41,887 nucleotides of DNA from a virus. The stretch is taken from the IMG/VR virus record IMGVR_UViG_3300044695_006854, positions 1 through 41,887 of that record; one strand, 5' to 3'. Below the pieces are notes generated by a model that ran no database searches, had not been told where the DNA came from, and saw only the letters and a program-made list of their open reading frames with translations. The translations under genes were made by a program, and so were the position numbers. Positions 4,506 to 41,887 of this stretch are shown in pieces; the first letter of the stretch is position 1, and every line of letters starts with the position of its first letter.

Positions 4506-5729
4506 ATGAAGGTGACGAAGGTGAACGATCCGGGCAGGCGGCTGCCGTGGAAGCTGGACGGCTACTTCGGGGGCCGGCGGGTGAGACTTTTTTTTGCGAC
4601 GAAGGGGGAGGCGGAGGCGGAACGGCTGCGGCTGTCGGGGGAACGGGGCGAGACGGGGACGACGGGGGACCGGCTCTCGCCCCGGGAACGGGTGGTGTTC
4701 GCGGAGCTGCGGGACCGGCTCGCGGAGCGGGGGGCGACAATGGAAGAGGCGGTGGGCTTTTTCCTGGAGCACGGCACGGCACCCATGCGGCCACGACGAC
4801 TCTGGGATCTGCTGGACGAGGCGATCGAGGGGAAGGAGCGGGAGGGAAAGAGCGAACGGTATCTGGTGCAGTTACGGTGCACGGTGGGGTCTCTGCTGAG
4901 ATGCGAGGGATGGGGAGAACGGTGGGCGCACGAGCTGACGCGGGAAGCGGTGGAGGCATGGGTCGATGGCAACGGATGGAGCGACAAGACCCGGCGGAAT
5001 TATTTGATCAATGTCAGGAGCGTGCTGGAGTGGGGCCGAGCCGCGGGCTCGGTGCGCCGGAATGTGACGGAGGGGATCCGGCTGCCGAAGGGGGAGAAGG
5101 AGGGGGAGGTGTCGGTGCTGTCTGTCCGCGACGCGGCCAGACTGGTCGCGCTAGCGCGACCGAGGGCGGTGGGCGGTAGGCGGTTGGCGGTGGCCGGTCA
5201 AGCTGTAAAGGAATCCTCTACAACTGAAGTCGCGGAAAGGGATGGGGGGCTGCTCGTGTATGTGGTGCTGGGGCTGTTCTGCGGGCTGCGACCGGAGCGG
5301 GAGATGGGGCTGATGCGACTGTCGGCGATCAACCTGGAGGAGGGGACGGTGGTGGTGGATGCGGGATTGGCGAAGAGCCGCTCGCGGCGGGTGGTGGATG
5401 TGCCGGTCAATGCGCGCGGATTGTTGAAGATGGGGGTGGAGTGGCTGCGGGCCCGGGGGGAGGACCGGGTGGTGGGACGGAATTTCCGGAAGCGATGGGA
5501 GGGACTGCGGCGACGGGCGGGTCTGGAGGAATGGCCGGCGGATGTGATGCGGCACAGCTATGCGAGCTATCACTTTGCGATGTGGCAGAATGAGAATTTG
5601 TTGAAGGCACAGATGGGGCATTCGCGGGAGTCGGAGGTGCTGTGGCAGCATTACCGGGCGCGGGTGACGAGGCGGGAGGCGGAGCGGTTCTGGCGGATCG
5701 GCATGGGGAGACAAAATGATGGGGGGTAG
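4506..5729 (+). CDS. int: Tyrosine-family site-specific integrase
   Basis: 407 aa. There is an N-terminal arm-binding region, a core-binding SAM-like domain (about 95-195) and a catalytic domain. Catalytic residues visible are R262 (GLFCGLRPE), K290 (AKSRSRR), R349 (DVMRHSYAS), H372 (MGHS) and the nucleophile Y383 (QHYR). The box-II first position, normally His, is D346. Residues about 219-248 are an extra in-frame segment encoded by a GGCGGT word repeat that interrupts the usual link between the DAARLVALA helix and the R motif. The last codons (RQNDGG stop) are supplied by a GACAAAATGATG repeat. It presumably recombines attP with host tRNA-fMet. Confidence 0.9.
   Translation: MKVTKVNDPGRRLPWKLDGYFGGRRVRLFFATKGEAEAERLRLSGERGETGTTGDRLSPRERVVFAELRDRLAERGATMEEAVGFFLEHGTAPMRPRRLWDLLDEAIEGKEREGKSERYLVQLRCTVGSLLRCEGWGERWAHELTREAVEAWVDGNGWSDKTRRNYLINVRSVLEWGRAAGSVRRNVTEGIRLPKGEKEGEVSVLSVRDAARLVALARPRAVGGRRLAVAGQAVKESSTTEVAERDGGLLVYVVLGLFCGLRPEREMGLMRLSAINLEEGTVVVDAGLAKSRSRRVVDVPVNARGLLKMGVEWLRARGEDRVVGRNFRKRWEGLRRRAGLEEWPADVMRHSYASYHFAMWQNENLLKAQMGHSRESEVLWQHYRARVTRREAERFWRIGMGRQNDGG
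5164..5200 (+). repeat. GGCGGT-type word repeat inside the integrase gene
   Basis: Tandem near-copies of a seven-base word (ggcggtg, ggcggta, ggcggtt, ggcggtg). The same family lies at 7140-7177 and, inverted, at 7569-7620. Confidence 0.65.
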
Positions 5730-6855: not shown

Positions 6856-7079
6856 ACCGGACCACGTGCATGGGAATGGGGCTTGCCTTGGTGATGGGCT
6901 TGGCGGCGGGATTGACGGCGGGCGGGGCGGCGCTGGTGTCGGAGCGCCGGGAGCGGGAGCGCCTGGAGGAGGAGGTGGAGATGCTGGCGGGCGACCTGAC
7001 GGCTCTGCGGGTGGAGGCGCAGTGGGATCGCTTCGAGCAGGACCGCGGGACCGCGGAATGGCAAGGAGGTGGGCGATGA
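6852..7079 (+). CDS. Membrane-anchored coiled-coil early protein
   Basis: 75 aa. An N-terminal hydrophobic segment of about 25 residues (MGLALVMGLAAGLTAGGAAL) is followed by a charged heptad helix (SERRERERLEEEVEMLAGDL). It overlaps both neighbours by ATGA. The function is unknown. It could anchor an early complex to the inner membrane. Confidence 0.5.
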   Translation: MNRTTCMGMGLALVMGLAAGLTAGGAALVSERRERERLEEEVEMLAGDLTALRVEAQWDRFEQDRGTAEWQGGGR

Positions 7080-7558
7080 GCTTGCCGGGAATGGCGGATG
7101 GGGAGGATCTGGGGGAGTACGCCGACGCGCTGAAGGAGCGGTTGGCGGTGAGCAGTGGGCAGTGGGCGGTCGGCGGTGCGCCGACGGAGACGCTGATCCC
7201 GCTGGAGGCGGTGGAGGAGGAGAGCTTCGACCTGCAGGGGTATCTGGACGGGCGCCGGGATGCCTACCTGAAAGAGGAGCACGGGCGATTCAAGGAGGTG
7301 GCGGCGACGGTGGGCCAGATGACGATCGCGGACGCGATGCGGATGGTGCGGGCAGCGTTCGTGGCGGGGGCCTCGGCGATGGCGGACGGGGTGACGGCCC
7401 GGGACGGCCTGCGGCTGATGCGGGATGAGGAGGCCATGAAGATGGCGGAGCGCCGGATCGCGATGCGGAAGGAGCTGGCCCGACAACGGCGGTCGATTGC
7501 GGATTTTCCGAAGCTGAAGTGGCTGGTGCGCGCGGAAACGAAGGAGGGGGTGCGCTGA
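7076..7558 (+). CDS. Early protein of unknown function
   Basis: 160 aa from ATG 7076, coupled on both sides. Apart from residues about 22-35 (VSSGQWAVGGAP), which are encoded by a cagtgggcagtgggcggt word repeat, it is mostly helical and charged. No motif recognised. The repeat-coded stretch probably arose by insertion of a host-type interspersed repeat in frame. Confidence 0.5.
   Translation: MSLPGMADGEDLGEYADALKERLAVSSGQWAVGGAPTETLIPLEAVEEESFDLQGYLDGRRDAYLKEEHGRFKEVAATVGQMTIADAMRMVRAAFVAGASAMADGVTARDGLRLMRDEEAMKMAERRIAMRKELARQRRSIADFPKLKWLVRAETKEGVR
7140..7177 (+). repeat. GGCGGT/GCAGTGG word repeat inside a gene
   Basis: Near-tandem gcggtgagcagtgggcagt words in coding sequence, same family as 5164-5200. 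Confidence 0.6.
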
Positions 7559-7827
7559 TGGAGGGACGGCCTACATCCGACGGCCTACGGCCGACTGCCT
7601 ACAGCCCACAGCCGACGGCGCTTTGGAGCTACGCGGACCTGGCGAAACGCTGGCGGGTGTCGGCCCGCTCGGCGAAGGCGATGGCGAAGCGGATCGGGCT
7701 GCGGCCGGTGGTGCTGGGGGCGCATTGCATGCGATTCCGGCCGGCGGCGGTGATGAAGGCGGAGGAAGGGGCGGAGCGGGGTGGCGATGACTTTGAACTG
7801 AAGGGCTGGCGTGGGAGGCGTCGGTGA
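7558..7827 (+). CDS. AlpA/excisionase-like HTH protein
   Basis: 89 aa from ATG 7558, overlapping the upstream stop. Residues 1-21 are encoded by a cctacggccgactgc word repeat (inverted form of the family in the integrase). The rest matches the MerR-like HTH_17 pattern: YADLAKRWRVSARSAKAMAK, then GLRPVVLGAHCMRFRPAAVM, i.e. helix-turn-helix plus wing and a final helix. Such proteins serve as excisionases or activators of integrase genes. The role here is inferred from the fold and the presence of an integrase. Confidence 0.6.
   Translation: MEGRPTSDGLRPTAYSPQPTALWSYADLAKRWRVSARSAKAMAKRIGLRPVVLGAHCMRFRPAAVMKAEEGAERGGDDFELKGWRGRRR
7569..7620 (-). repeat. GGCNGT word repeat, inverted copy
   Basis: On the minus strand it reads gtcggctgtgggctgtaggc, the same word family as 5164-5200. 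It encodes the N-terminus of the HTH protein. Confidence 0.55.
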
Positions 7828-7857
7828 GGAGACAAAATCATGGAGGGTAAAATCATG
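7828..7857 (+). repeat. GACAAAATCATG element, copy 2
   Basis: Both half-elements end in ATG (7840 and 7855), so it provides two in-frame candidate starts for the next gene. Confidence 0.8.
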
Positions 7858-8091
7858 AAAACGGAACGATTCGCGAAGAATGGCTCGCCGCTGGCGGGCC
7901 GGGTGGTGCCGCCGGACTGGCGGGATCTGGATCCCCAGGGGAAGCGGGCGCGCTGCGTGGCGCTGGGCTGGGCCGGGGATCTCTACGAGGCGGGCAGGTT
8001 GCTGGCACGCCATGCGGCGGCGGCGGTGCAGGGGAGGAAGCGCAAGGAACGCGAACGCCGGATCTCGCGGACGTGCTGGTGGGAGGCGTGA
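7855..8091 (+). CDS. Small basic early protein, unknown
   Basis: 78 aa from ATG 7855 (an in-frame ATG at 7840 would add five residues). Both starts lie in the interspersed repeat. It has a Trp-containing N-terminal half (VVPPDWRDLDPQGKRARCVAL) and a helical basic C-terminus (GRKRKERERRIS). No family recognised. Confidence 0.5.
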   Translation: MKTERFAKNGSPLAGRVVPPDWRDLDPQGKRARCVALGWAGDLYEAGRLLARHAAAAVQGRKRKERERRISRTCWWEA

Positions 8092-8145
8092 GGATTTTTA
8101 CCGGGCACAGGCCCTGACAAACAAACAACACACAACGATACGAAG

Positions 8146-8775
8146 ATGGCTACAAAAGCAAAAGCAGAGACGGCGGTGCAGATCAGTGCACCGAAAATCG
8201 AGACGGCGGAATTCAAGATCGTGGGGACGGCTCCCTACGTGCAGCTCCGCTTCTCGGAAAAGGCGATGAACACGATGGCCGAGAAGATGATGCTCGGCTC
8301 GCAGGCGGGGAAGAAGCGGGCGAAGGAGGCCCGGGACTTCGACGAGGATTTCCGCCAGGCGATGCACTACAGCGAGGAGGGCTGGAACGGGATCCCCGCG
8401 GGGGCGTTCCGGAACGGCCTGATCTCGGCGTGCCGATTGGTGGGATTCAAGATGACGCTGGCGAAGCTGTCGGTGTTCGTACTGCCGGATGGCTTCGACA
8501 AGGTGGACGGAGTGCCGCTGATCCAGATCGAGGGCAAGCCGGAGCCGGTGACGATGCACGTGCGGAACGCGACGGGGGTCGCGGACCTGCGGGTGCGGGC
8601 GAAGTTCTGGCCGTGGAGCGCGAATCTGCGCATCCAGTATGACGCCGGCCAGTTCTCGACGACGGACGTGGCGAACCTGCTGCTGCGGGTCGGTGCGCAG
8701 GTGGGGATCGGCGAAGGCCGGCCCGATAGCAAATCCTCGGCCGGGATGGGTTGGGGGACTTTCTCGATTGGCTGA
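8146..8775 (+). CDS. Conserved early phage protein with RAMP (Cas7)-like motifs
   Basis: 209 aa. I recognise it as a recurrent uncharacterised early phage protein. Residues 83-97 (IPAGAFRNGLISACR) resemble the IPxSSLKGALR helix of RAMP/Cas7-type RNA-binding proteins. The C-terminal glycine-rich stretch (VGIGEGRP at 186-193, GMGWGTF at 200-206) resembles their G-rich loop. This similarity is from memory of motifs, not a search, so RNA or ssDNA binding is an inference. It ends 10 bp before the GGCNN array, which is itself followed by another conserved early gene. The replicative neighbours suggest a nucleic-acid role; a single-strand annealing or binding protein is the main alternative. Confidence 0.55.
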   Translation: MATKAKAETAVQISAPKIETAEFKIVGTAPYVQLRFSEKAMNTMAEKMMLGSQAGKKRAKEARDFDEDFRQAMHYSEEGWNGIPAGAFRNGLISACRLVGFKMTLAKLSVFVLPDGFDKVDGVPLIQIEGKPEPVTMHVRNATGVADLRVRAKFWPWSANLRIQYDAGQFSTTDVANLLLRVGAQVGIGEGRPDSKSSAGMGWGTFSIG

Positions 8776-8785
8776 CAATGCTGGA

Positions 8786-9266
8786 GGCGCTTCCATCGCA
8801 GGCTGCGCACGGCCGCGCATCGCTAGGTTTGGTCCGGCGAGGCGGGGCTTGGCAGGGCAACGCAGGCAAGGCTAGGCACGGCGTGGCCGGGCACGGCCGG
8901 GCCGGGCTCGGCGAGGCATGGCAGGCAAGGCGCTGCGAGGCGAGCCCTGGCTACGCCAGGCAAGGCACGGCAGGTGTGGCTAGGCATGCAGCGGCGCGGG
9001 ATGGCGGGGCACGGCAGGCTAGGCTCGGTTTGGCTGCGCTTGGATCGGATCGGTTCGGCGAGGCAGGCAAGGCACGGCTGCGCAAGGCAAGGGCAGGCCG
9101 GGCACGGCAGGCCAGGCGTGGCACGGCAAGGACGGGCGTGGCCCGGCTCGGCATGGATTGGCACGGCAGGCAGGGCGTGGCGTGGCGAGGCGTGGCTCGG
9201 CTAGGCCAGGCACGGCAGGCGCGGCCTCGCGAGGCCCGGCGTGGCACGGAGAGGCAAGGCAGGCAC
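8786..9266 (+). repeat. Degenerate GGCNN pentanucleotide array
   Basis: About 95 consecutive five-base units with consensus G-G-C-N-N, in which positions 1-3 are mostly fixed and 4-5 are highly variable (ggcaa, ggcta, ggcac, ggcgt, ggccg...). The register is broken by single four-base units (CGCA at 8861, GGCA at 8920, 8969, 9013, 9062, 9106, 9165, 9214 and 9258), giving blocks of 59, 49, 44, 49, 44, 59, 49 and 44 nt. Most breaks sit in GGCACGGCAGGC. It lies on the transcribed strand of the early operon between two genes. Frames are open only because stops are rare in such sequence. GG every five bases could allow two-tetrad G-quadruplexes. Function unknown. Confidence 0.9.
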
Positions 9267-9333
9267 GACACAAACCGCGACCGGAGAGCGGGGTAAAAAT
9301 GGCCGGAATCAATCCTAACCCACATCAAAAATC

Positions 9334-9768
9334 ATGAGTCTGATGACACTGCAACAATCGCTGGCCGCACTGGCGGAGCGCAACGGGGGCGAACTGACAC
9401 CGGCGGCGGTGGTCGATTACGCGCGGCCGAAAACGTCGCCGATCCACGATCGCTTCACGTGGGACAACAAGGTCGCCGGGGACAAGTATCGACTGCTGGA
9501 GGCGGCGATGCTGATCCGATCGGTGCGGATCTCGTTCGAGGACAACGCGGGAGAGGTGGCGCCGCCGGTGCGGGCCTTCGTCAACATTCGCGAGAATCCG
9601 AAGGAGCCGGGCGCCTACATCCCGATCCAGCGGGCGCTTTCTTGCTCGGAGACCTCGGCGGTGATGCTGGAATCGGCGAAGCGCGAGGCGGATTCGTTCC
9701 GCCGGAAGTATGCCAGCCTGGAACAGGCGCGGCGGGTGGTGGAAGCGATCGGTGAATTCGTGGCCTGA
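9334..9768 (+). CDS. Conserved early phage protein, unknown function
   Basis: 144 aa. It belongs by pattern to a widespread early phage family: GELTPAAVVDYARPKTSP, then IHDRFTWDNKVAGDKYRL, IRSVRI, and a C-terminal helix SFRRKYASLEQARRVVEAI. It follows the GGCNN array by 67 bp, with no Shine-Dalgarno sequence in front of ATG 9334. I know no function for this family. Its regular company with recombination-type early genes suggests DNA replication or recombination. Confidence 0.6.
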   Translation: MSLMTLQQSLAALAERNGGELTPAAVVDYARPKTSPIHDRFTWDNKVAGDKYRLLEAAMLIRSVRISFEDNAGEVAPPVRAFVNIRENPKEPGAYIPIQRALSCSETSAVMLESAKREADSFRRKYASLEQARRVVEAIGEFVA

Positions 9769-9776
9769 AACACACG

Positions 9777-10064
9777 ATGAACGAAGAACCAAGAACAACG
9801 AACCACGAACCGCGCCCCGAGGCGCTCGACCCTCGCGTGCGGGGGGCGGTGGCGCACTTTTTTGATGAGGGGCTTTTCCAGGGGCTGACTTGGTTCGAGT
9901 CGGCGGTGGCCTGGCAGATGATCGGGAATCGCCTGATCGAGGCCAGCGACTTCCCGATCGCGGCGGCGACGACGCTGGCGAATCTGATGAAGGGCTGCGA
10001 GGCCTTTCGGAAATGCGCGGCGAGCGGCGGAATCGACGTGGGGGTGGAAGGAGGGGCGGCATGA
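9777..10064 (+). CDS. Small early protein, unknown, with repeat-coded N-terminus
   Basis: 95 aa from ATG 9777. Residues 1-14 (MNEEPRTTNHEPRP) are encoded by the accaagaacaacgaacca word repeat. The remainder (GAVAHFFDEGLFQGLTWFES...AAATTLANLMKGCEAF) is helical and may be the original protein. An alternative later start is possible but no other ATG is close. The stop overlaps the next ATG. Confidence 0.45.
   Translation: MNEEPRTTNHEPRPEALDPRVRGAVAHFFDEGLFQGLTWFESAVAWQMIGNRLIEASDFPIAAATTLANLMKGCEAFRKCAASGGIDVGVEGGAA
9779..9811 (+). repeat. ACCAAGAACAACGAACC word repeat
   Basis: AT-richer stretch of repeated 'gaacc/gaac' words at the start of a gene; second copy at 12201-12233 and a variant at 14235-14262. 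Confidence 0.6.
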
Positions 10065-10453
10065 GGGGACGCAACGAGGAGCAGGACGTGCTGCTGCAGG
10101 CGGCGGGCCGGGTGCCGGCGGAGACGCTGATGCTCTACGCGATGCTCTCGGACCAGATCCAGACGCTGGGGACGATGCACCGGATGGGGATGTGGCACTA
10201 CTCGCCGGATGAGCTGGGGGACTGGCTGCGCCGGCAAGCGGAAAGCGGACGGGTGAACACGAAGAACACGTTCATGCTGGAGAGCGCGATGCGGGAATGG
10301 CAGCTCTGGGGCCGGGCGACGGATGTGCTGATCCAGACGCTGGAAGAGGAGACGATCGTGCGGATCGACCGGAAACGGATCATCGACCTGGCGATGGAAT
10401 ACAGCCGGGGCACTTGGAGCCGGGGGAACCTGGGGAAGCGGGTGGCGGCGTGA
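10061..10453 (+). CDS. Early protein, unknown
   Basis: 130 aa from ATG 10061, coupled to the gene upstream. Predominantly helical with several Met and Trp residues (MGMWHYSPDELGDWLRRQAE, MREWQLWG) and a basic end. The central DELGDWLRRQ region could be a small helix-turn-helix, but I cannot assign a family. Confidence 0.45.
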   Translation: MRGRNEEQDVLLQAAGRVPAETLMLYAMLSDQIQTLGTMHRMGMWHYSPDELGDWLRRQAESGRVNTKNTFMLESAMREWQLWGRATDVLIQTLEEETIVRIDRKRIIDLAMEYSRGTWSRGNLGKRVAA

Positions 10454-10454
10454 C

Positions 10455-10486
10455 GGGAGACAAAATCATGAGGGGTGAAATCATGG
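10455..10486 (+). repeat. GACAAAATCATG element, copy 3
   Basis: Starts two bases after the upstream TGA and supplies ATGs at 10468 and 10483 for the next gene. Confidence 0.8.
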
Positions 10487-10716
10487 ACATGGAGCGGGAG
10501 CTGGATGGGATCGAGGCATCGATGCTGGCGGTGACGCTGCGGGAGATCGAGCGGATCGATGAGGGCCTGCGGCTGGTGGTGGAGATGCGGGACACGAACG
10601 CGCTGGCGGCGAGGATCTGGGAACCCTTCGCGCGGTGCATGGACCGCCACCTCGAGGACCGGGCGAAGCTGATGGCGGTGCGGGATGCGTTGCGGGGGGA
10701 AGGGAGGGGACGATGA
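10483..10716 (+). CDS. Small helical early protein, unknown
   Basis: 77 aa from ATG 10483; in-frame ATG 10468 and GTG 10450 are alternatives, all within or just before the interspersed repeat. The protein is almost wholly helical and acidic-amphipathic (MERELDGIEASMLAVTLREI). The stop overlaps the next start (ATGA). No family recognised. Confidence 0.4.
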   Translation: MDMERELDGIEASMLAVTLREIERIDEGLRLVVEMRDTNALAARIWEPFARCMDRHLEDRAKLMAVRDALRGEGRGR

Positions 10717-11078
10717 GCACGCGCAAGAAATTCCGGAAGCCGGGGGTGGGCTCGATCGTGACGGGGCTGCACCATCCGGCGGGCCAGCCGGAGGAGAACG
10801 ATGTGTGGCGCCGCCTGGAGCGGGCCTTCGCGGTGGGTCGGTTGAGGGTAGGCCAGTGGGTGACGTACTCGGATCTGATCGCGCTGACGAAGGCGGGGGG
10901 CCAGTGCATGCTGTCTCTGCAACTGACGCTTGCGGAGCACCGTGCGAAACTGCTGCTGGTGGAGGAGGAGAAGGGCTACCGGGTGGAGGCGAGGTTCGGA
11001 GAGGGAGGGACGGGGAGAGGGGGAGAGGGAGAGAGATGGAGACTCTGGAGGGATCGGGCTTGGCGCCACGATCTCTGA
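10713..11078 (+). CDS. Early protein, unknown
   Basis: 121 aa from ATG 10713. A basic N-terminus (STRKKFRKPG) is followed by a mixed domain with LERAFAVGRLRVGQWVTYSD and a Gly/Glu/Arg-rich low-complexity tail encoded by gggagaggg-type repeats near 10990-11040. DNA binding is possible, but no motif is decisive. Confidence 0.4.
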   Translation: MSTRKKFRKPGVGSIVTGLHHPAGQPEENDVWRRLERAFAVGRLRVGQWVTYSDLIALTKAGGQCMLSLQLTLAEHRAKLLLVEEEKGYRVEARFGEGGTGRGGEGERWRLWRDRAWRHDL

Positions 11079-11104
11079 ACACTGAATACGGATCACCGAT
11101 CACG

Positions 11105-12172
11105 ATGCATAGCGACTCTTACGGATGGGTGGATGGCGAGCGGGTGCCGCTGACGCCGGCGGAGGGCTGGGTGTGGCCGGATGAGGCGTCGGAAGCGACG
11201 GAGCGGACGCGGGGATCGGGTCTGTGGTGGCCGTCGGAGGCGGACAGGGCGCTGTGGCTGGGCCTGCTCTCGCGTCCGGAGGCGGGGGAGGTGAGCGAGG
11301 CGGCACGGCGGGAGCTGGTCTACTGGCTGGCGGCGGACGGGCTGCAGCCGATGGCGTGGGCGCGGCGATGGACGGGGCTGCTGTGGCGGTTGGCTCCGGA
11401 GCGGCTGCCGGCGGAGGCGCGGACGCTCTTCGGGGCGGCGGGACATTTCGAGCGGGCGGTGCTGGAGGCGTTTTTCCCGGCGGCGCGGAATGCGCGGCTG
11501 GCCCGGGCGGAGCGGGCGCGGATCGAGTCGGTCTTCCGCGGGCTGGGCGGGAAGCTGGCGCCGGTGCGGCGGGGGACGCCGCTGTCGGTGGAGGATCTGG
11601 CCTCGGGCACGATGGCGTCGGAATGGTGCGGCTGGCCGGCCTGTGACGCGGAGGTGCTGGAGGAGGCGGCGGAGGTGGCGCGGCTGACGATGCGCAACCA
11701 GGTGGCGTGGCTCTCGGAGGATGGAGCCTGGGCGCTGGGGGCCCTGAAGCGGTATTATGTGCTGGTCTTTGTCCGCTACACGGATCTGGCCCCGCGGATG
11801 ACGGGAAACGACTACGGGGAGATCTACGGTCAGACGCGTGCGGCGTTCTGCGAGGACGCGAAACGCTACATCGGCCTGCCGCTGGAGGCGGAGCTGGGCT
11901 ACCGGCCCAAGGTGGCGGGGCAGAAGAGCGCGGCGGCGGCGGATGCCTATGCGCGGAACGCGGCGGAGCATTGTCCTCGGCGGCAACTGGGGGGCGAGGC
12001 CTTCGCGACGGAAAAGAGCGAGCAGGCGCGGAAGGCGGACGCGGAGGCGCGCCTGGCGGAGGCGAGGGCGATGGCGGAGCGGCGGCAGGTGGAGCGCGAG
12101 GCGGAGGAGATGCGCCGGATCGCGGAGAGGAATCGGGAGCGGAGGAGGAGGGGACAGAATCATGGGGGGTGA
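11105..12172 (+). CDS. Large early protein, unknown
   Basis: 355 aa from ATG 11105; the open frame reaches back to 10685 but overlaps the preceding gene. A Trp-rich N-terminal region (YGWVDGERVPLTPAEGWVW) and a long helical middle are followed, from about residue 300, by an Ala/Glu/Arg coiled coil (EARLAEARAMAERRQVEREA). The last five residues (QNHGG) and the stop come from a GACAAAATCATG-family repeat. It precedes the ParB-like gene. No family recognised. Confidence 0.45.
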   Translation: MHSDSYGWVDGERVPLTPAEGWVWPDEASEATERTRGSGLWWPSEADRALWLGLLSRPEAGEVSEAARRELVYWLAADGLQPMAWARRWTGLLWRLAPERLPAEARTLFGAAGHFERAVLEAFFPAARNARLARAERARIESVFRGLGGKLAPVRRGTPLSVEDLASGTMASEWCGWPACDAEVLEEAAEVARLTMRNQVAWLSEDGAWALGALKRYYVLVFVRYTDLAPRMTGNDYGEIYGQTRAAFCEDAKRYIGLPLEAELGYRPKVAGQKSAAAADAYARNAAEHCPRRQLGGEAFATEKSEQARKADAEARLAEARAMAERRQVEREAEEMRRIAERNRERRRRGQNHGG

Positions 12173-12182
12173 ATCATGGGGG
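12151..12182 (+). repeat. GACAAAATCATG element, copy 4
   Basis: Variant gacagaatcatgggggg; provides the TGA stop of the gene before it and a candidate ATG at 12176. Confidence 0.8.
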
Positions 12183-12200
12183 ATTCACTTCCGCAACGGG

Positions 12201-12233
12201 GAACGAGGAACCAAGAACAACGAACCAAGAACG
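12201..12233 (+). repeat. ACCAAGAACAACGAACC word repeat, second copy
   Basis: Sits directly before the ParB-like start, followed by a run of seven T. Confidence 0.6.
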
Positions 12234-12241
12234 ATTTTTTT

Positions 12242-13924
12242 ATGACCGACCTGATCATTCATCAACCCATCGACGGAATCCGCATGTGGAACAACGCGCG
12301 GACGCTTTTTGACCAGAAGGAACTCGAGGAACTGGCGGCTTCGCTGCTGGAGACGAAGGGGGCGCAACAGTATCCGGTGGGCTTCCTGACGGACGGCGCG
12401 GGATCGGAGGTGGCGCTGCTGATGGGCGAGCGCCGGTGGCGGGCCTACCGGATCCTGCGGGACAAGGGGCACGCGGACTACGCGGCCCTGCCGGTGCGGA
12501 TCGTGGCGCAGCCGAGCGAGAAGGATGCCTACAAGTGGTCGCTGATCGAGAACCTGCAGCGCGTGAACCTGCGGCCCTCGGAGACGGCGGAATGGGTGGC
12601 GCGGATGCTGGATTTGGAAGACGAGGAGACGGGCCGGAAGGTGTGGACGATGGAGAGCCTGGGCGAGGATCTCGGCAAGGACAAGGGCTACATCGACGAA
12701 CTGATGCAGATGCGCCGGGCGCCGCTGACGGTGCGCGAGGCGGTGGACGCGGGGGCCTGTGCGGTGCGGATCGGGCGGATGATCGGGTCGCTGCCGCAGG
12801 AGATGCGCGAGGGGGCGGCGGCGGAGATCGTGTTCGGCCCGATGGGGTGCATGACGGTGGCGGCGGCGCAGGACTGGATTTCGACGCATTACCGCCGGGA
12901 TCTGCGCCGGGCGGACTTCGCGACGGACCAGGTGGGCCTCGATGGAAAGCCGGCTTGTGTGCGGTGCGAATGGTGGGGCGGGAACCGGGCGGATGTGGGC
13001 GGGAAGAATGCGGTGCATTCGTGCCTCAATCCGGCGTGTTTCGCGGCGAAGCAGCGGGCGGCGGTGGCGGCCTCGGTGGAGGAGGAACAGGTGATCGAGC
13101 CGGAGGCGGCGGAGGGGATGTGGGAGGTGCACACGGGCCGCCTCGCGCCGTCGAGCGGCTACGTGGATCTGGAGGAAAAACCCTCGCCGCTGATGCTGGC
13201 GGACGGGGGCCGCGGCGGGGCGGTGGTGCCGAGCTGGGGCGAAATTTTGGAGGGCTCGGGCGTGGCCCCGATGGTGACGTGGGATCCGCGCGGGGCGCGT
13301 CGATCACTGGTGGAGACGGGCGAGGCCCTGCGCGCGGCCGGCCAGTCGAAATGGGGGGCACTTTTCCGCGATGGGGTGGTGAATGAATACCTGTCGCCGG
13401 AGGAGCGGGCGGCGGAGCGCAAGGCGCGCGCGGCGGGGGATGCGGAGCATCGGGCGGCGGTGTCGGAGGGGCTCTGCGAACTGGCCCGGGGGCTGCGGGT
13501 GGGCACGCAGGAGCTCGACGAGGTGATCGCGGCCGCGGCGCGGGTGGCGCTGGAGGATCTGTGCAAGGGGGAGGATCTGGCGCTGGTGGCGGAGGTGCTG
13601 GGGGTGAAGATGGGCGAGGGCCGCACGCTGGAGCATTTGGAAAACGCGGTGGGCGCGATGCGCGGCGCGGAGCTGGGGGCGGCGATTGTGACGGTGCTGC
13701 TGGCCCGGCGGGTGCGGTATGAGGGCTTCGCGCCGCTGATCCAGGAGGACGGCGCGCCGCTGGCGGAGCTGTGCCGCATGGCGGGCTTCGACGCGGGGGC
13801 CTGGCATCGTCAGGCGCGGCGCCGCCGGAATGCCGCGGAACGCGCGGGCCGGGACAAGGCGATGGAGGACGCGAAGGGGAAGGCCCAGCGCGCGATCGGG
13901 AATCGCGCGACGAAGCGGGAGTGA
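12242..13924 (+). CDS. ParB/Spo0J-domain protein with cysteine cluster
   Basis: 560 aa from ATG 12242; an in-frame ATG at 12176 lies in repeat sequence and is less likely. The N-terminus is a ParB-type domain: NARTLFDQKELEELAASL, MGERRWRAYRIL (62-71), LPVRIVAQ and the LIENLQRVNL box (101-110). An HTH-like region follows (ETAEWVARMLD, YIDELMQMRRAPLTVREAV). Around 239-262 is a cysteine cluster (CVRCEWWGG...CLNPACF) that may bind metal. The C-terminal half is helical. No ParA is encoded. It could act in partition, transcription control, or as a CTP-dependent clamp; a 26-bp palindrome downstream is a candidate site. Confidence 0.7.
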   Translation: MTDLIIHQPIDGIRMWNNARTLFDQKELEELAASLLETKGAQQYPVGFLTDGAGSEVALLMGERRWRAYRILRDKGHADYAALPVRIVAQPSEKDAYKWSLIENLQRVNLRPSETAEWVARMLDLEDEETGRKVWTMESLGEDLGKDKGYIDELMQMRRAPLTVREAVDAGACAVRIGRMIGSLPQEMREGAAAEIVFGPMGCMTVAAAQDWISTHYRRDLRRADFATDQVGLDGKPACVRCEWWGGNRADVGGKNAVHSCLNPACFAAKQRAAVAASVEEEQVIEPEAAEGMWEVHTGRLAPSSGYVDLEEKPSPLMLADGGRGGAVVPSWGEILEGSGVAPMVTWDPRGARRSLVETGEALRAAGQSKWGALFRDGVVNEYLSPEERAAERKARAAGDAEHRAAVSEGLCELARGLRVGTQELDEVIAAAARVALEDLCKGEDLALVAEVLGVKMGEGRTLEHLENAVGAMRGAELGAAIVTVLLARRVRYEGFAPLIQEDGAPLAELCRMAGFDAGAWHRQARRRRNAAERAGRDKAMEDAKGKAQRAIGNRATKRE

Positions 13925-41067: not shown

Positions 41068-41887
41068 GTGAGCGCGCCGATCCGTCTACGTCATGCCGTG
41101 GTGCCTCTGCTGGCAATGCCGGCGGGGGGTAAATTCAAGCTGGGGTTTTCGGTCGCGGCGGGCTACGATCCCGGCACGGTGCCCGGATGGCGGGTCGAGC
41201 TGGCGGCCCGATACGGGGCCAATCGGACGCCATGGGTCGGCTCGACGGTGACCGTGGTCGGCCAGGATTTTTCGTTCGAGTTCGACCCGGACGCGGCCAG
41301 CGACGACGACGAGGACGTGAGCCTCGCCGATGTGGCCGAGGCGGGCAATTGTGCCTGGTCAGTGACCGCCCTCGACGCCGAGGATCTGCCGATGTGGCGG
41401 GTCCAGGGCGACGTGGACTGGGTCGAGGGTCTCGGCGATCCCGACACGGGCGTCGGCGGATCGGGGGCAAATCCCATCATCGTCCACCTCGACGACGCGG
41501 AGACGATCAGCCTGTCGATCGCGACGGGCGCGGATGGTGCGCCGGCCTACGTCTACGTGGGATACGCGGAGGACGACGAGGGCACGGGCTTTGCGACGAC
41601 GGCCGGGGTGGGCCGGGATTATGTGGCGTTCCTTTCAACCGTCGAGGAGATCGAGACGCCGACGGCGGAGGATTTCGAGGGGCTCTGGCACCAATACAAA
41701 GGCGCGGCCCCGGGACCGACGGGTGCGACCGGTCCTGCCGGAGCCGCTGGAGCCACGGGCGCGACCGGTCCTGCCGGAGCCGCTGGAGCCACGGGCGCGA
41801 CCGGTCCTGCCGGAGCCGCTGGAGCCACGGGCGCGACCGGTCCTGCCGGAGCCGCTGGAGCCACGGGCGCGACCGGTCCTGCCGGAG
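41068..41887 (+). CDS. Collagen-like virion protein, N-terminal part (continues at base 1)
   Basis: Open frame from GTG 41068 to the window end, where it continues in frame at base 1 if the 109-bp terminal overlap is collapsed, giving a protein of about 537 aa. The first ~214 residues form a non-repetitive domain with an acidic stretch (DDDEDV). From about 41710 they give way to Gly-X-Y collagen-like repeats ([12 protein letters not shown] pattern) encoded by a 36-nt tandem unit. The GTG start is chosen because TTGAC lies 15 nt upstream, as at other late genes. Such proteins usually form trimeric tail-fibre or fibril shafts. The position after the tail genes supports a virion surface role; the exact function is inferred. 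Confidence 0.75.
41743..41887 (+). repeat. 36-nt tandem repeat, right end
   Basis: Four exact 36-nt units plus one base, encoding collagen-like [12 protein letters not shown]. Bases 41779-41887 are identical to bases 1-109. Confidence 0.9.

Follow-up and report, generated by a model that had tools for sequence, protein, structure and literature searches.

Positions 8,146 to 9,768 of the virus record IMGVR_UViG_3300044695_006854, which we analysed over its whole stretch of 41,887 nucleotides (the window), very probably constitute a VIPR locus of a temperate tailed phage, made up of a Vipr protein and a guide-RNA array. The locus most likely encodes a small relative of CRISPR proteins together with a guide RNA built of repeats, which the phage would probably use against rival phages by locating their genes and silencing them. 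The VIPR system itself has already been described, and the present locus is an additional member. The preprint that reports it (PMC13142463) describes a RAMP protein that binds vrRNAs consisting of GGY/NN repeats and a tail, arrays of 9-16 units of GGY plus a variable NN, and pairing of the NN with double-stranded DNA, one target base being skipped between pairs. The guides are directed at competing phages, those of Escherichia phage SUSP1 having been shown to block transcription, and seven types are distinguished there, some with staggered arrays of overlapping vrRNAs. Our literature search found no relevant description of VIPR beyond this preprint. In that preprint, this months-old class of RNA-guided DNA recognition is documented mainly from the SUSP1 and P. 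fulva clades; the present locus would take it to a temperate phage of a different clade.

A Vipr protein and its association with arrays

An earlier sequence-only reading of this DNA had placed a gene with RAMP-like stretches, a GGCNN array and a second gene in succession, and the positions of all three are confirmed on the sequence. The array is on the plus strand, and the two genes flanking it are:

8146-8775, + strand: vipr gene (gene A), 209-aa single-domain RAMP (Cas7-like), phrog_4652, PHROGs E 1.3e-15
9334-9768, + strand: likely vipr-accessory (vap) gene (gene B), 144 aa, phrog_15946, PHROGs E 2.3e-25

The family matched by gene A is annotated as of unknown function, and a Pfam search of gene A and gene B returned nothing significant. 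An iterated profile of gene A reached 120 relatives in the fetched loci, 83 of which were used for the final profile. This profile matched the SUSP1 Vipr (PDB 36pp; VIPR type II) with E=1.7e-41 over positions 5-193 of 193, while the second-best match in the PDB search reached only E 0.025, indicating that the Vipr of the SUSP1/SUSP2 system is homologous to the gene A product over its full length. An AlphaFold (AF2) model built from the alignment of the 83 relatives (pLDDT 93, pTM 0.86) was compared with the PDB using Foldseek, and all 37 matches with E<=0.001 were CRISPR Cas7-type backbone subunits, mainly Csm3. The TM-scores of these matches were modest (0.32-0.52), in line with a simpler RAMP. 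The profile and structure searches that the sequence-only reading had proposed therefore arrive at a RAMP by both routes. The peptide IPAGAFRNGLISACR and the glycine-rich C-terminus on which it had relied are both present; conservation of residues G183, G187, R192 and G204 is 90% or higher among the 83 relatives, and the glycine-rich C-terminus is a hallmark of the family. On the strength of profile and model, we identify the gene A product as a Vipr, with the single-domain RAMP fold and G-loop characteristic of these proteins. A scan of genome contigs recovered a single relative, in an Acidobacteria metagenome-assembled genome.

The likeness to the backbone RAMPs of type III CRISPR (Csm3/Cas7) extends to the fold, the glycine-rich loop and the expected stoichiometry of one subunit per guide unit. 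In contrast to type III CRISPR, the part examined contains no CRISPR repeats or cas genes: PADLOC gave 0 matches for the 10 neighbouring proteins, and no CRISPR-like array was present among the tandem repeats. The two also differ in that the unit here is 5 nt rather than 6 nt and carries its guide information in dinucleotides. The mismatch between five- and six-base steps had been held against a Cas7 analogy, an objection that dissolves because the VIPR guide unit is 5 nt.

The association between Vipr and the array is general. When viral contigs were scanned for eight exact GGC units without regard to their genes, at least 120 were selected, and among the matches listed 85 of 120 carried a Vipr, in every case no more than 1.5 kb from an array and, in 83 of these 85, on the same strand (the exceptions being L073 and L127). 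Of 82 decoy contigs carrying the reversed pattern, all of which were examined, only 3 had a Vipr (Fisher p 4e-24), and all 3 also have GGYNN arrays. Several of the 35 Vipr-less array contigs among the listed matches contain single-repeat runs, or arrays that lie within long reading frames or at contig ends. The co-occurrence of gene and array, which the earlier reading had named as a check, is thus strongly positive. Among 30 close Vipr relatives, 19 have strict arrays; in the other 11, degenerate arrays with a 5-base period lie past gene B, with counts reached in 0-2 of 200 shuffles. These results suggest an annotation recipe for viral metagenomes, in which a GGYNN array together with phrog_4652 marks the locus.

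Architecture of the array and its 3' tail

The window contains 20 occurrences of three GGCNN units followed by GGC, all on the plus strand between 8836 and 9216, against 0.07 expected and with none of 100 shuffles coming close. A 28-base array pattern has 12 matches on the plus strand and 0 on the minus strand, and 0 when reversed. Parsing by unit length resolved the array into nine blocks (8801-9261), each a series of 5-nt units that ends in GGCAN (in block 5, GGCGA) followed by a 4-nt [C/G]GCA. Because the 5-nt units end in this 4-nt unit, block lengths follow 5n+4, and the 4-nt unit shifts the repeat register from one block to the next. The array adjoins gene A, as the sequence-only reading had it, but is not the single uniform run it described: a degenerate first block begins about 25 bases past gene A, the clean array starts at 8836, and a conserved tail after the array had been overlooked. 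The parsed features are:

8801-8864, + strand: guide block 1, 11 variable units, then GGCAA and CGCA; degenerate GGC; block with the best candidate target
8865-8923, + strand: guide block 2, 10 variable units, then GGCAT GGCA; two chance-level matches in the viral-contig scan
8924-8972, + strand: guide block 3, from the parse; 30 core matches in the scan, no clear target
8973-9016, + strand: guide block 4, from the parse
9017-9065, + strand: guide block 5, from the parse; terminates in GGCGA GGCA
9066-9109, + strand: guide block 6, from the parse
9110-9168, + strand: guide block 7, 10 variable units; one suggestive match, in contig L164
9169-9217, + strand: guide block 8, from the parse; 8 core matches in the scan, no clear target
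9218-9261, + strand: guide block 9, from the parse
9262-9306, + strand: 3' tail of the array RNA, H-type pseudoknot, conserved in relatives, with covariation of stem 2
9275-9278 (CCGC) with 9288-9291 (GCGG), + strand: tail stem 1, also in the minimum free energy (MFE) fold
9281-9284 (CCGG) with 9303-9306 (CCGG), + strand: tail stem 2, covarying

The junction GGCANNGCAGGC occurs 7 times in the array and once elsewhere, against 0.2 expected. The blocks comprise 8-12 five-nt units each, built on GGC with substitutions (in block 1, CGC or GGT stand among the units in place of GGC), so that the array is of the GGY/NN kind with some blocks slightly below the range given in the preprint. Across 116 blocks of the clade, lengths of 39, 44, 49, 54 and 59 are the most frequent, and the final unit carries AA, AT or AC in 99. 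A protein-coding reading of the array was rejected because its GGCTAGGC units give in-frame TAG stops. Two other Vipr-linked arrays have a constant linker between guide blocks instead of GGCAN-[C/G]GCA, GGCTACCTCA in L127 and GGCGTTCA in L046.

Past the last block, relatives have in common CACAAACCG[C/G]...GGGGTA. Here the loop enclosed by stem 1 base-pairs with nearby downstream sequence, giving stem 2, which occurs in 13 sequence versions among 17 distinct tails (of 21). The pairing score of loops is much higher with their own downstream segments (14.2) than with exchanged ones (10.4), a difference reached in 0 of 100,000 permutations; the regular expression that collected the tails presupposed an ACCG..GGT core, that is stem 1, and not stem 2. 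Stem 1 also co-switches, from ACCGC/GCGG to ACCGG/CCGG. The tail is an H-type pseudoknot RNA of the kind reported for SUSP1 in the preprint, and supplies the structured 3' end of a VIPR array. An Rfam search gave no matches in window positions 7000-12000 and, across 15 relatives, nothing but a tRNA; a hammerhead ribozyme like that mentioned in the preprint is therefore not seen in these sequences. Terminator-like hairpins with a T run follow the tail or array in L015 (4072-4149) and, past gene B, in L036, as would fit an array at the end of a transcript.

Comparison with the known systems shows both shared and distinct features. The SUSP1/SUSP2 systems likewise have GGY/NN repeats and a small downstream gene, the SUSP2 locus has pseudoknot-like tails past its repeats and by eye the same general layout, and the 1-nt skip fits the candidate targets described below. 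In contrast, the repeats here are GGC where theirs are mostly GGT, and SUSP1, according to the preprint, has four separate vrRNAs of about 100 nt where the window has nine fused blocks with a 4-nt shift and one tail. This compact multi-guide layout may correspond to the staggered arrays that the preprint mentions for some VIPR types.

Candidate targets and alternative explanations

Five of the window guides (blocks 1, 2, 3, 7 and 8) were scanned against the viral collection using 8-unit cores and a 1-nt skip. Block 1 yielded 48 core matches, seven of which lie in homologous genes; of four of these tested, two match phrog_862. The variable part of block 1 agrees at 22/22 positions in L325, 21/22 in L298, 20/22 in L316, L317, L321 and L333, and 19/22 in L323. 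All seven sites are antisense, and the skipped base falls on codon position 3, the wobble position. From the core-match counts, the chance of a 22/22 match after five guides is roughly 0.005-0.03, an estimate made imprecise by codon composition.

Independent guides of the clade point to the same replication module. Of the 116 parsed blocks, the 75 with at least 7 variable units were compared with the seven target contigs. In a PIF1-like helicase of L323, two genes downstream of the phrog_862-like gene, a guide of L009 agrees at 16/16; a guide of L028 matches that phrog_862-like gene at 15/16 in L323 and 14/16 in L316; and a guide of L020 matches it at 13/14 in L323, and another site in L321 at 13/14. 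In all of these the skip is at codon position 3 throughout. In L323 this L009 guide, the block at 2726, falls on the STGVAAL helicase motif; it also fits L239 with one mismatch and could span many PIF1-like helicases. Skip rules of 0, 2 and 3 gave, in aggregate, only background on the target contigs. By their public names, L333 shares a metagenome with the VIPR locus L028, as do L298 and L316 with L023.

The sequence matches support a 1-nt skip and genes of foreign phage replication as putative targets. Tentatively, and as something short of an even prospect, we propose that the array is a polycistronic guide RNA in which nine guides, set apart by GGCAN-[C/G]GCA shifts and sharing a single pseudoknot, would be directed against codons of conserved replication-protein motifs (KPSGKYIR, and STGVAAL of PIF1-like helicases). 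Because the wobble base is skipped, one guide would under this proposal suffice for phages with target proteins only about 43% identical, and the system would effectively read protein motifs through DNA. The candidate targets so decoded are a conserved phage gene without assigned function and a helicase.

Several results weigh against the reading as a VIPR locus directed at competing phages. About 35 of the 48 block 1 core matches fall in one repetitive phage gene without a flank match, and a good target was found for only one of the five scanned guides: blocks 7, 2, 8 and 3 gave 4, 2, 8 and 30 core matches, respectively, and no convincing target. A 7-unit window guide under a skip of 3 matches 14/14 in L298. 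In a rate test of 45 foreign guides (at least 8 units, window guides left out), the strict threshold gave 2 matches over 0.17 Mb of target contigs, compared with 3 over 2.9 Mb of viral contigs outside this set, a modest excess that is suggestive, not overwhelming. An all-against-all test on 2.8 Mb (both strands) of the first loci, using 410 of 504 guides (duplicates and guides below 8 units left out), stayed at chance under every skip rule. Codon-phase coherence (406 guides) with a 1-nt skip reached z 2.66 over all guides, equalled by 1 of 200 within-locus shuffles, while within this clade it was z 0.04, reached by 95 of 200. The MFE of the tail is not below that of shuffles (z -0.39), the fold calculation being one without pseudoknots, and a promoter search yielded none. 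Two candidate results were set aside: a codon-phase z of 6.1, inflated by between-locus differences, and L164 as a block 7 target, whose match (21/22 with the constant last unit, 19/20 without it) is compatible with chance. With the same 75 guides, additional sequence from two of the target contigs yielded no further convincing site.

A different use of the same particle, in which a VIPR ribonucleoprotein (RNP) with one long multi-site transcript serves self-regulation or packaging rather than attack, would account for the single tail serving nine blocks and for the four scanned guides without a clear target. We consider it quite improbable, since block 1 matches a foreign phage at 22/22, a tblastn search of the window and the VIPR loci for homologues of the target proteins was negative, and independent guides converge on one replication module.

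A role of the array as DNA and not as guide RNA appears highly improbable, whether as a hotspot of recombination, an origin of replication or a parS-like site to which an annealing or partition protein binds. A ParB-like protein is encoded in the same phage at 12176, and cyanophage Cy-LDV1 has Bet, exonuclease and SSB genes downstream. Against this stand the strict co-orientation of array and operon (83 of the 85 listed matches), the covarying RNA pseudoknot at the array end, and variable NN pairs with matches to other phages, which would be unexpected for a site. The protein, moreover, is a RAMP: all 83 relatives match phrog_4652 only and none a single-strand annealing protein (Bet/RecT/Erf), and a Pfam search gave no family of that class. 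The annealing-protein alternative of the sequence-only reading is therefore without support.

Finally, pentamer repeats are prone to slippage and some arrays (L016, L127) have internal duplications, but the chance that the array is a low-complexity slippage product adjoining gene A by accident is negligible, as this is contradicted by co-occurrence (85 of 120 listed array contigs, 30 of 30 close loci), by conserved junctions and tail, and by covariation.

Proposed mechanism, gene B and genomic context

Returning to the VIPR assignment, the array would be transcribed together with the operon, by extension from the preprint. Vipr would coat the array RNA with one subunit per 5-nt GGC-NN unit, as the solved homologue and RAMP logic suggest, and the NN pairs would be offered to double-stranded DNA with a single target base skipped between pairs, in analogy with the described systems and in keeping with the sequence matches. 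The block between two register shifts would form one guide, and the terminal pseudoknot may cap the RNA much like a crRNA handle. With one tail for nine blocks, the RNA could be cut at [C/G]GCA, hold overlapping guides or form one long nine-guide RNP. Judging by the SUSP1 guides, the complex would block transcription of competing phages' genes. The RNP of array RNA and protein put forward from the letters alone matches, by analogy, what the preprint reports for homologues (PMC13142463); the role of the NN pairs as guide had not been foreseen.

Gene B is likely a vap gene, and its product may act as an accessory protein. It is present in 29 of the 30 close Vipr loci (L012 ends ahead of its position) and, among the matches listed, in 24 of 120 array contigs; it therefore appears to be this clade's accessory and not a universal part. 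Genes A and B occur in the same 33 phage records, several of which are duplicate GenBank/RefSeq entries. Co-occurrence upholds the earlier placement of gene B in the module and is its sole support. The AF2 model (pLDDT 92.7) has no structural matches beyond weak winged-helix ones, and, as a difference from SUSP2, gene B has no detectable homology to the Vipr-neighbour gene there.

Upstream of the locus, an integrase gene (4506-5729; phrog_1, E 3.8e-23) indicates that the phage is probably temperate, and the ParB-like protein lies downstream of the VIPR genes (12176-13924; Pfam E 1.2e-6). An identical 36-base collagen-like repeat at both record ends (1-398 and 41719-41887) suggests a circular or terminally redundant genome.
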